Positions 18,979 through 49,035 of a stretch of DNA of 64,000 nt are shown here, piece after piece. The DNA lies in contig DAIDGX010000003.1 of assembly GCA_027452165.1 (NCBI GenBank), positions 124,001 to 188,000 of the forward strand, written 5' to 3'. Numbering within the stretch: the first letter of the stretch is position 1; every line of letters starts with the position of its first letter. The notes below the pieces were generated by a model, which saw only the letters and a list, made by a program, of their open reading frames with translations, was not told where the DNA came from and ran no database searches. Source of the DNA: Vulcanimicrobiota bacterium. Its GTDB lineage: Bacteria > Vulcanimicrobiota > Vulcanimicrobiia > Vulcanimicrobiales > Vulcanimicrobiaceae. A program made the position numbers and the translations under genes.

Positions 18979-19857
18979 TCAGCTCGCTTGCGCTGGCGGA
19001 TGCAACTCGCCTTCAGCCGACGGGCCGAGGGCAATCGAGTCGTCATTCACGATCGCGCGCCGTGCTTCGCGGAGCTGCGTCGTAATCTTTGCATCGATCG
19101 TCCCCGATTCCGTTTCGACGAGCACACCTCCGCGATCGACGCGCTGATCCTCCACCACCCGAAGATGTTCGATGTCGCTCGAGGCGACGATAGCGTCGCG
19201 ATGATGACGAATCACCTCGATATCCGCCGGATTCACACGTAACGTCACCACCTCACGTGCGAGCACGCGTGCTACTGCTTGGCGCACGTTCTCCACCACG
19301 ACGTTTGGATTGGAACCGACCTCCGTATGAACGACGCGCTCGGCGACGTCGAGCGCAAGACGTACCATCTCGGGCTCCGCCGCCGCGAACATCGCCTCGC
19401 GTTGCGCGCGAACGCCGGAGATGAGCCCGCGCAACGTCGCGAGTTCCGGCTCGAGTTGCAATCGCGCTTCCTCTTGCGCAGCCGCGCGGCCGTCGGCAGC
19501 ACCGCGCTCGCGCGCCTGCGATTCGAGTTCGGCGACCTGTACATCGGCACGCTCGAGGAGCTCGAGTGCCGCGCGTTCTGCATGTTCGAGCAACGCCTGC
19601 GCGTCGGTCGCGGCACGATCGATCAACGCTTCGGCGTCGCCACGCACGGCCGCCCAATCGACGCGCGATTCCTCCACGAGCATCCCCCCGTGCTCACTCG
19701 GGCGCTCGGAAAATGCGTCGCGCTCGTCGATAAATGGAGAAGCAAATCGCTCGTCGGCCTCGTGTGCCGCGGCAACCGGCGCTTCGGACTCGATGCGCGG
19801 TACGTGAACCACGTATGCCGTATCGGTGACCGAAGCCGCCTTGACAATCTTGCCCAT
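18979..19857 (-). CDS. fliH: Flagellar assembly protein FliH
   Basis: A 292-residue regulator of FliI. The N-terminal 80 residues are poorly conserved, the middle is a long Ala/Glu-rich coiled coil (about 85-165), and the C-terminal domain has the FliH/V-ATPase E-like pattern MVRLALDVAERVVHTEV, then RVLAREVVTLRVNPADIEVI and GTIDAKITTQLREARRAIV. It starts just downstream of the duplicated fliG tail and stops three bases before fliI. Confidence 0.9.
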   Translation of the reverse strand: MGKIVKAASVTDTAYVVHVPRIESEAPVAAAHEADERFASPFIDERDAFSERPSEHGGMLVEESRVDWAAVRGDAEALIDRAATDAQALLEHAERAALELLERADVQVAELESQARERGAADGRAAAQEEARLQLEPELATLRGLISGVRAQREAMFAAAEPEMVRLALDVAERVVHTEVGSNPNVVVENVRQAVARVLAREVVTLRVNPADIEVIRHHRDAIVASSDIEHLRVVEDQRVDRGGVLVETESGTIDAKITTQLREARRAIVNDDSIALGPSAEGELHPPAQAS

Positions 19858-19863
19858 GAGCGC

Positions 19864-20052
19864 TTAAACCAGCCGCTCGTCCTTCGCGCCGCGCGCGATG
19901 ACGATCTGCCTGTTCCGCCCAAGCGGGCTACGCCCGCTCGGGGACCCGAGCGTTGAAACGGCGCTCCGCGGCTGCGCCGCTGCACGCCCCCCGCGCGCCT
20001 GCGCGGGGCCCCCATCGAAGAAAACGGGGCGCCAGTCGCACGTCGTCGTCAT
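19864..20052 (-). pseudogene. Small frame ending in a second copy of the FliG tail
   Basis: A 62-residue open frame begins at an ATG that overlaps the fliG stop (ATGA) and ends with RQIVIARGAKDERLV, the same 14 terminal residues as FliG after a G-to-R change. The underlying 43 bases (19868-19910 versus 20053-20095) match at 39 positions. All differences inside the codons are silent, and the stops differ (TGA versus TAA). The first 47 residues are encoded by palindrome-rich sequence and look like insert, not protein. I read this as a duplicated fliG end split by a repeat element; whether it is translated is unknown. Confidence 0.6.
19911..20049. repeat. Palindrome-rich insert between the two fliG tails
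   Basis: Three close hairpins are visible: AGCGGGC/GCCCGCT (19922-19938), GCGGC/GCCGC (19968-19980) and CCCCGCGC/GCGCGGGG (19989-20008). They lie between the two copies of the fliG end. A 12-base piece, CGTTTTCTTCGA, also occurs in inverted form on both sides (near 20017 and 20097). The layout resembles a REP or RPE-like interspersed element; confirmation needs other copies elsewhere in the genome. Confidence 0.5.
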
Positions 20053-21128
20053 ACCAACCGTTCGTCCTTCGCGCCGCGCGCAATAACGATCTGCCCGTTT
20101 TCTTCGAGGGTTCGGATGACGTCCACGATTTGCTGTTGCGCTTTGCCGACTTCGCGCATGCGCGTCGGGCCGAGGAGCTCGATCTCTTCTTTGAGCAACG
20201 ATGCGGCGCGTGACGACATGTTCTTGTACACGCGCTGGAGCAGCTCTTCGTTCGCCACCTTGAGCGCGAGCGCAAGATCCTTGCCATCGACCTCTTTGAG
20301 GATACGCTGAATCGAGCGGTCGTCGAGGTTGATGATATCTTCGAAGACGAAGAGCAGGTTCTTCACCTCTTGCGCGAGTTCGGGGTCGCGCTTGGTGAGG
20401 CCGTCCAGAATATTCTTCTCCGTTTCGCGATCGACGAAATTCATCACGTTGGCGAGCGACTGCACGCCGCCGGCCTTCGCGAAATCCGCGCCGCTCACGA
20501 GCAGACGGCGGCCCAGCAGTTCGTCGAGCTGCTCCAACACTTCCGGCGCCGTTTTCTGTAGGATCGCGATGCGCATCGCCACCTCGGCCTGCAGATCGGG
20601 CGGAAGCGCCGAAAGTACGGCACCAGCCTGCTCGGCGGCCATGTATACGAGGATCAACGCGATCGTCTGCGGATGTTCGTCCTGAATGAATTGCAGGAGT
20701 TGCGCGGGCTCGGTCTTCTTTATCAGTTCGAGCGGGTTGCCGTGCTTGAGCGCCGCGAAGAGGCGCGACGTCATGTCATCGGCCTGACCGGAGCCGAAGC
20801 TCCGCTCGAGGATCTCCTTCGCGTACTCGATGCCGCCTTCGTTGATGTACTTTAGGGCGATTGCGCGCTGGTACGCTTCCTGAACGACCGCGTCGCGTTT
20901 CTCGAGCGGGACCGTCGTAATCTTTGCGATCTCGAGGACGATGCGTTCCACTTCGTCCTGGCGCAAGAATTTGAAGATGGTCGCCGAGAGTTCGAGACCG
21001 AGCGTGATCAACAGGATCGCGGCTTTTTCTGGCCCCGAAATTTCAAGTTGCGGCATCTCGGGCATCGTCCCAAACGGCGCGTCTGGAAGGTCCCCAAAAC
21101 CAGAGAGGTTCACGATCGGCGATTCCAT
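20049..21128 (-). CDS. fliG: Flagellar motor switch protein FliG
   Basis: A 359-residue rotor protein. The N-terminal domain (SGPEKAAILLITLGLELSATIFKFL) binds FliF, the middle domain carries the EHPQTIALIL motif (HPQT at about 155), and the C-terminal domain has the charged helix region (LLFVFEDIINLDDRSIQRILKEVD) that meets MotA. An extra N-terminal 28 residues precede the usual start. The final 14 residues are duplicated downstream (19868-19910). Confidence 0.97.
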   Translation of the reverse strand: MESPIVNLSGFGDLPDAPFGTMPEMPQLEISGPEKAAILLITLGLELSATIFKFLRQDEVERIVLEIAKITTVPLEKRDAVVQEAYQRAIALKYINEGGIEYAKEILERSFGSGQADDMTSRLFAALKHGNPLELIKKTEPAQLLQFIQDEHPQTIALILVYMAAEQAGAVLSALPPDLQAEVAMRIAILQKTAPEVLEQLDELLGRRLLVSGADFAKAGGVQSLANVMNFVDRETEKNILDGLTKRDPELAQEVKNLLFVFEDIINLDDRSIQRILKEVDGKDLALALKVANEELLQRVYKNMSSRAASLLKEEIELLGPTRMREVGKAQQQIVDVIRTLEENGQIVIARGAKDERLV

Positions 21129-47254: not shown

Positions 47255-47298
47255 AACGAAAGAGGCCCCCGGTCGAGCGACCGGGGGCCTCTTTCGTT
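47255..47298. terminator. Bidirectional 20-bp hairpin terminator
   Basis: A perfect 20-bp stem (47255-47274 with 47279-47298, loop GAGC) with AAAG on one side and CTTTCGTTT on the other. It serves the plus-strand lipoprotein gene and the minus-strand rplA, which converge here. Confidence 0.9.
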
Positions 47299-47316
47299 TG
47301 GCTAACGCTTTGACGC

Positions 47317-48018
47317 TTACGCGGTCACGCGCGCGCGGCTCGGATCGACCTTGACACCGGGGCCCATCGTGCTCGTGAGCGTGATGCTCTTGATATACGT
47401 ACCCTTCGCTGCCGCCGGCTTAGCACGAACGATCGCGTCGAGTAGCGTGTTCACGTTCTCCAGCAGTTGATTCGCATCGAACTGCGACTTGCCGACGATC
47501 GTGTGGATGATCGCCGTTTTGTCGAGGCGGAACTCCACCTTACCAGCCTTGATGTCGCGGATCGCGCCCGCGATGTTCGCCGAGACGGTACCGGCTTTCG
47601 GGTTCGGCATCTTCTGCGCGAGAATACGGCCGAGCTCCTTACCGACGAGCGCCATCATATCCGGCGTCGCGACTGCGACGTCGAACTCGGTGAATCCGCC
47701 CTTGAGCTTATCGATCAGATCCTGATCGCCAACGTGATCGGCGCCGGCATCCTGCGCAGCTTTAGCGTTGTCGCCCTTGGCGAATGCGATCACACGCACG
47801 GTGCGGCCCGTGCCGTGCGGCAGCAACACCGTACCGCGCACGTTCTGATCGCTCTTCTTCGGATCGACGCCCAAGCGAATGTGAATCTCGACCGTCTCGT
47901 TGAACTTCGCGTTCGCGTTCTTCTTCACGAGATCGATCGCTTCGACCGGCGCAAAGAGCGCCTTCTTGTCGTAGTTGGCTGCCAGCGTCTTATAACGTTT
48001 ACCGTGATGCTGTGGCAT
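47317..48018 (-). CDS. rplA: Ribosomal protein L1
   Basis: A 233-residue protein with the L1 start ([41 protein letters not shown]) and the RNA-binding region around [22 protein letters not shown]. In many bacteria L1 represses its own operon by binding the rplK leader. It shares one base with the rplK stop. Confidence 0.97.
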
Positions 48019-48609: not shown

Positions 48610-48734
48610 TCCCCCCATATTCCGGCTGATCAGGTGTGGGGGTAACCACCTGGCCAAACTCGAGTAGCTTACGGCACGTGATGCACGCTTGTAAAGTGGA
48701 GAGCTCGCATATCGTCACCCCACCATGGAAGCCG

Positions 48735-49035
48735 GTGGCGGAGGCCCGAGCGGGCGTCCCAGGTGGCGGAGGCTCGAGCGGGCTTCGGTGGCCGGGGCTC
48801 TGAGAAATTCGCGAAGCGGGACGGCGAGAGCGGATTTTCAGGCAGCAGCGTTTCTCCTTGGATGGAGCAACGCGGGCATCCCAGGTGGCGGAGGCTCGAG
48901 CGGGCTTCGGTGGCCGGGGCTCTGAGAAATCCGCGAAGCCGGGACGGCGAGAGCGGATTTCTCAGGCAGCAGCGTTTCTCCATGGATGGAAAAACGCGGG
49001 CGTCCCGGCTGCCGAAGCCCGCTCGAGCCTCCGCC
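48735..49035. repeat. Tandem repeat of about 121 bp with inverted end between rplK and nusG
   Basis: A unit beginning AGGTGGCGGAGGCTCGAGCG occurs at 48762 and again at 48883 (period 121), with only scattered differences; a partial related start is seen at 48735. A 24-base core, 48766-48789 and 48887-48910, recurs as an exact reverse complement at 49012-49035, just before the nusG stop. Small open frames across it change frame between copies and look non-coding. The inverted copy could fold with either direct copy and act as a terminator for nusG. Confidence 0.8.

Follow-up and report, generated by a model that had tools for sequence, protein, structure and literature searches.

A doubled fliG end in a Vulcanimicrobiaceae genome, and the small structured, possibly mobile element that separates its two copies

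Small palindromic repeats in bacterial genomes are usually treated as junk or as terminators. The Rickettsia palindromic elements (RPE) and similar repeats are about 100-150 nt long, palindromic and low in copy number, and they lie in rnpB, in tRNA loci and in protein genes. Integrative elements and satellites, eg the tRNA islands and prophage e14 in icd, use the 3' ends of genes as attachment sites (attB). In two further systems a sequence carried by the element spans both sides of the insertion point: the bridge RNA of IS110/IS1111 has complementarity to sequence on either side of the target point, and the internal guide sequence (P1/P10) of group I introns and IStrons is antisense to both sides of the insertion point. 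The present analysis concerns a 64,000-nt stretch of contig DAIDGX010000003.1 from a Vulcanimicrobiota bacterium (the window), in which the end of the gene fliG is present twice with a strongly folded, three-hairpin insert between the copies. We consider the chances about even that this insert belongs to a family of small, structured, non-coding mobile elements, not described before, which rescue the ends of the genes that they enter.

The doubled end of fliG and its relatives

The last 17 codons of fliG (NGQIVIARGAKDERLV and the stop) recur 185 nt downstream, immediately ahead of fliH (Table 1). The direct repeat itself (19868-19914 and 20053-20099) is 47 nt long and 89% identical, with a start-to-start distance of 185. 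Over the full 17 codons 44 of 51 nt are identical, and the second copy codes on the minus strand for (N)RQIVIARGAKDERLV and a stop (19864-19914). A first-pass annotation of this DNA had described the duplication, a palindromic insert with three hairpins between the copies and a 62-codon frame linking them. All three are present: the hairpins are strong by folding, and the ATG of the frame (19864-20052) overlaps the fliG stop. Its statement that the copies differ only synonymously holds for the five codons it listed (GTT/GTC, ATT/ATC, GAA/GAG, TTG/CTG and GTA/GTT). With the stop codon (TGA/TAA) there are six silent differences among seven, and the unlisted seventh, GGG/AGG at the first edge of the repeat, is a G/R replacement. 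The insert also contains, inverted, 14 nt of fliG sequence (TCGAAGAAAACGGG), which that annotation had missed: its CCCGTTTTCTTCGA is exactly the reverse complement of fliG where the doubled stretch begins. In the following, T1 is the gene end upstream of an element, T2 the one downstream, and the antisense is the segment complementary to the target.

Table 1. Coordinates of the fliG insertion and its surroundings, numbered from the first nucleotide of the window
Feature	Position	Strand	Basis
Host gene fliG, coding for 359 aa	20049..21128	-	orthologues in relatives 85-98% identical
T1: fliG end (NGQIVIARGAKDERLV and stop) upstream of the insert, with non-native synonymous codons	20049..20099	-	repeat and codon comparison
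Target of the antisense segment (TCGAAGAAAACGGG), around the insertion point	20094..20107	-	inverted-repeat and junction comparison
Antisense segment CCCGTTTTCTTCGA across the fliG insertion junction; its core identical in G011 and G015	20015..20028	-	inverted-repeat and junction comparison
Structured core of the element	19917..20013	-	covariance model match, 66 bits, E 2e-10; covariation
Hairpin 1 (CCCCGCGC-AGGC-GCGCGGGG)	19989..20008	-	fold and covariance model
Hairpin 2, with conserved internal loop GCA/GGA and GGAG motif	19960..19988	-	covariation and covariance model
Hairpin 3 (CCCGAGCGGGC-GTA-GCCCGCTTGGG)	19918..19943	-	fold and covariance model
T2: displaced native fliG end, between the 3' end of the element and fliH	19864..19914	-	repeat and codon comparison
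62-codon open frame, start ATG overlapping the fliG stop, end coinciding with T2	19864..20052	-	reading of open frames
fliH, next gene of the operon	18979..19857	-	reading of open frames

FliG orthologues were retrieved from relatives of the window's genome and their fliG/fliH junctions were compared. Two congeners, G001 and G002, have the site without an insert, and at that position G011 and G015, which belong to two other genera, have a homologous insert that agrees in fold and in the core of the antisense; the duplication is therefore not a matter of chance. The end of fliG is doubled in G011 as well (48 of 51 nt identical), and is not doubled in G015, where the second copy has been lost or was never present. 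At all five informative sites where T1 of the window differs, T2 has the codons of G002, and by this codon comparison it is the downstream copy that is native and the one inside the gene that has diverged. Gene conversion from an older fliG paralogue, which had been proposed for the second copy, was rejected because a FliG search gave a single match in the window's genome. A pattern search with the motif CCCGTTTTCTTC gave few matches, and elements only at the three fliG loci.

A structured family confined to one bacterial family

The first-pass annotation had favoured a mobile element and had suggested a search of the genome for more copies of the insert. By BLAST there seemed to be none, ie one copy was found in the window's genome and the other matches were chance ones, yet covariance models found five to six, which together with the homologous inserts of G011 and G015 supports the mobile-element view. 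Model R1 was built from the three fliG inserts and model R2 from 70 copies, and the sample consisted of 99 genomes of the bacterial family and 50 other genomes of the phylum, all of them assemblies, mostly of uncultured bacteria and some incomplete. R1 had matches in 65 of the 99 family genomes; R2 had matches in 64 of them and in none of the 50 others. The element family is thus confined to this bacterial family in the genomes searched, and a sequence search is blind to it. The fold is well supported, since across the 70 copies 97.4% of the paired cells are kept and there are 386 double-sided changes, compared with 96 in shuffles. The copies are found in rnpB (in the loop of P12), beside or inside tRNA genes, in the leaders of infB, atpB and fliG (names which are our reading of the translated starts) and at the ends of genes. 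No credible match to the element was found in Rfam for the window region and nine element loci, where only neighbouring RNase P, tRNA and M-box sequences scored above the cut-off. One exact pattern tried against viral contigs had no match, and no description of the family was found in the open papers searched.

Several kinds of site were noted in passing. In rnpB the element occupies the P12 loop in several genera (L148, L152, L153, L156, L157, L176, L195 and L196), sometimes as tandem or opposed copies, and the RNase P model still matches across it. At L035 (2947-3009), L062 (2920-3005), L299, L270 and L301, hairpins 1 and 2 occur alone, followed by UUUAAA and a start codon, so forming gene leaders in which the conserved GGAG of hairpin 2 is positioned like a ribosome-binding site. 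Copies directly upstream of infB (L178, L194 and L207) and atpB (L284 and L277) are shared within or between genera, and have perhaps been co-opted as leaders. Two protein genes (L168, L169, L198, L218, L238 and L243; L173, L203, L206 and L222) each have, in several genera, one and the same 3' site occupied by an element in antisense orientation, and there the reading frame apparently enters hairpin 3. A different dispersed repeat, close to CCTTCGACAGGCTCAGGATGACA, lies near and inside old copies of the element in the flanks of L224, L199 and L168. Within the window, a second match to the element model at 47266-47367 is weak (19 bits, E 0.057) and probably due to chance, and direct repeats at 48734-49017 (59-71 nt, 96% and 85% identical, start spacing 122-124) are apparently unrelated to the element.

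Rescue of gene ends and the antisense at the junction

At 16 sites the interrupted gene is still whole and its 3' part is present on both sides of the element. The restored genes are those for tRNA-Gln, tRNA-Ala, tRNA-Arg and tRNA-Val, together with fliG, rpsH, nusG and a gene that we label box (tail NWIAPKGKLA and stop); the intact tRNA is on the T1 side, as judged by ARAGORN. For the 14 non-tandem sites T1 and T2 agree at 500 of 538 nt (93%) inside the remainder of the gene and at 58 of 168 (35%) over the next 12 nt. Because identity drops past the end of the gene although the remainder varies from 19 to 55 nt, the duplicated stretch tracks the gene and has no fixed length, and a target-site duplication of fixed length was rejected for this reason. 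That rejection was later softened, as in other carriers at tRNA-Gln the shared stretch continues for 0-43 nt past the tRNA end, and the rule is now 'at least to the gene end'. A duplication of about 36 nt around an element at the 5' end of lpxA (L280, at the lpxA start, and L192) means that duplications are not confined to 3' ends.

All coding duplications together have 26 synonymous codon differences and two replacements. The protein-level constraint that the first-pass annotation saw in the second fliG copy is therefore real in effect, although its likely cause is another one: both ends have probably been shaped as the ends of working genes, some of them in different genomes. Between the two copies of the rpsH end in G016 nine codons of ten are different, all of them silently; the tenth, TGG, has no synonym. 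T1 there agrees at 28 of 30 nt with the end of rpsH in G005, which belongs to another genus, compared with about 76% for the rest of the gene, and the core of its insert is among the closest to two G005 elements (0.80 and 0.78), with one G011 element also at 0.80. In G016, T1 and the element thus look as if they had been imported together, the native end being pushed downstream. The same reading fits the fliG of the window, with its native T2 and divergent T1; no donor was found. In what appear to be fresh cases (fliG of G011, box of G076 and G072, and several tRNAs) T1 and T2 are identical or nearly so.

The frame that enters T2 is open in all eight coding cases, with a joint chance of about 0.008. 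In five of them its start codon overlaps the T1 stop, but three of the five are related box sites, and the evidence from the open frame is weak for that reason. The scan flagged the box site of G072 as interrupted for the sole reason that T1 and T2 share a reading frame there, so that it ran into the stop of T1 itself. A coupled peptide of 62 residues at fliG is possible, though not needed.

Antisense across the insertion point, lying between T1 and the core, is present in the fliG, box and tRNA-Gln targets and also in nusG. In the first three it extends from between -5 and -12 to between +1 and +19, and in the clear cases it scores 11-24 at its own junctions versus 8 or less at the junctions of other families. 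The automatic score missed nusG and the box site of G078, where a tandem duplication had placed the antisense inside the repeat; it is plain in nusG, and is seen in G078 by inspection.

The tRNA-Gln lineage offers the best evidence on the antisense. The putative guide and its scaffold lie behind an intact tRNA-Gln in 12 genomes of six genera (g1, g3, g9, g19, g25 and g51). From position -6 to +8 the complementarity is 14/14 in ten of the 12, 13/14 in G075 and 11/14 in G119, whose count is shifted by a single inserted base. Target and antisense have changed together in G004 (position 0, A to C) and in G112 (positions -5 and 16). The antisense of these tRNA-Gln units stands where hairpin 1 would otherwise be and directly abuts hairpin 2, and so is an inherited part of the element. 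The spacing of the repeats is always 153-228 nt, and G085 has three tandem tRNA ends. The window's genome has a single tRNA-Gln (G000:C21:250-750, L396), behind which there is a terminator and then a remnant of the guide, GGCGGAGTCAAAAGTCCGCTGCC, without scaffold and without a second tRNA end.

Alternative readings and known systems

The favoured course of events is as follows. A unit of about 120-230 nt consists of T1, a short spacer, in several target-specific lineages the antisense, and two or three hairpins as a scaffold. It inserts inside the 3' part of a gene, at a junction presumably picked by base pairing of the antisense, and would do so through an enzyme acting in trans or through host repair. 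T1 completes the gene and the native end, T2, is displaced downstream, so that the host gene survives; the almost exclusively silent differences would mean that selection acted on each copy as the terminus of a functional gene, several times in separate genomes. Base pairing of the antisense as the means by which a target is selected seems slightly more likely than not. The larger proposal is more tentative and in our judgement falls somewhat short of even: that these are a new class of minimal homing elements under 230 nt, guided by RNA or single-stranded DNA, each combining a rescue end and a structured scaffold with a guide for one particular site in an essential gene, which spread between species with the help of an enzyme in trans.

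A number of results weigh against this interpretation. Antisense was not detected at rpsH, tRNA-Ala, tRNA-Arg, tRNA-Val or the tRNA-Gln site of G089. The core at the box sites runs opposite to both gene and antisense, and the idea that antisense and core form one fixed arrangement was rejected on this account. None of three candidate partner enzymes tracks the copies: reverse transcriptase (PF00078) is found in 12 of the 99 family genomes and is absent from G000, G001, G005 and G089, the Y1 transposase of the RAYT type (PF01797) is found in four, and the IS110 transposase (PF01548) in 19, with none in the many-copy genomes G001, G002, G011, G089 and G005. All three were rejected as partners. 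Similarity among the copies of one genome is not clearly higher than between copies from different genomes (p 0.19), so that a recent burst within a genome is unsupported. Several sites (rnpB and the infB and atpB leaders) are common to congeners and look inherited, and the old sites may be vertical. Finally, exchange between tandem units could have homogenised T1 and T2, thereby mimicking a fresh insertion.

The strongest alternatives are a miniature integrative element driven by a recombinase, and a target duplication of which the antisense is a by-product. According to the former, which we think unlikely though the best placed of the alternatives, this is an ordinary small element moved by a tyrosine or other site-specific recombinase in trans, with an attP that contains the 3' end of the target gene, and the antisense is an arm-site or hairpin feature and not a guide. 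Doubled 3' parts of tRNAs and silent differences in the ends of protein genes are the classical signature of integration, the duplications end at or near the gene end, and the tandem units resemble tandem integrations. The units, however, are without genes: there is none between T1 and T2 (122-228 nt), although a recombinase in trans was not searched for, tyrosine recombinases being ubiquitous, and no kb-sized version was seen at tRNA-Gln in the 99 genomes. In addition, many unrelated targets are served by one type of scaffold, and we know of no attP with a junction-spanning antisense that changes with the target.

The second, also unlikely and ranked after the first, is that transposition or repair, SINE-like or by template switching, duplicated the target, the antisense arising anew each time by fold-back copying and having no guiding role. 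The widely varying length of the duplications would agree with this, as would the fresh look of some (about 43 nt past the tRNA in G002), the box antisense that stays in place though the core is inverted, and the fliG core of G011, whose best match is a second element within that genome (0.85) although the antisense is fliG-specific. The inheritance of the tRNA-Gln antisense in 12 genomes, in the place of hairpin 1 and flush with hairpin 2, argues against it, as does the lack of reverse transcriptase in many-copy genomes such as G001. The least probable explanation, that of an old, vertically inherited and immobile regulatory RNA which arose by local duplication and was repeatedly lost by recombination between the direct repeats, would account for sites shared by whole genera, for within-genome similarity that is not raised, for a GGAG ribosome-binding motif in hairpin 2 which at some loci leads straight to a start codon and for the open T2 frames, but it is improbable given the same fold in rnpB, tRNAs and unrelated genes, a T2 that matches the host's own gene end though within one target lineage the cores are 20-30% different, and the T1 of G016 rpsH that resembles another genus's.

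An element family of this kind leaves readable traces both of how its sites may be chosen, in the antisense that covaries with the junction, and of how the host survives, in the duplicate gene end. If the guide reading is true, the units would count among the smallest mobile elements that have a guide, and their partner enzyme would be new. Even if it is false, the family explains the doubled ends of genes and tRNAs in many genomes of the phylum.

Compared with the systems described so far, the fliG insert is not a miniature inverted-repeat transposable element, as the only inverted-repeat pair reported at 19700-20300 is that of antisense and target and there are no terminal inverted repeats. 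A retroelement, group II intron or retron would bring a reverse transcriptase, which the carriers generally lack. Like the repetitive extragenic palindromic (REP) sequences and REPINs, the element is a short hairpin repeat without genes; unlike them, it duplicates gene ends and occurs where the Y1 transposases of the RAYT systems are nearly absent. It shares with IS110/IS1111 the complementarity to both sides of the target point, but its antisense is one contiguous stretch directed against a single strand, the gene end is duplicated and most carriers have no DEDD transposase. The guide across both sides of the insertion point that is typical of group I introns and IStrons has its counterpart in fliG, box and tRNA-Gln, whereas no match to the catalytic core (P3-P9) was found in the window region or the nine loci, and the gene is complete without splicing. 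With the elements that integrate at 3' gene ends it has in common a displaced native end, a silently differing replacement end and possible tandem units, and it differs from them in being 122-228 nt long without a gene or a recombinase within the unit, and in having a structured scaffold and an antisense to the target junction. The RPE are likewise small, palindromic, low in copy number and found in rnpB, tRNA loci and protein genes. An RPE, however, lies in frame inside the gene product, whereas here the fliG stop precedes the insert and only a separate downstream frame is open, and the present element doubles gene ends, carries an antisense that spans the junction and has a strongly covarying three-hairpin fold.
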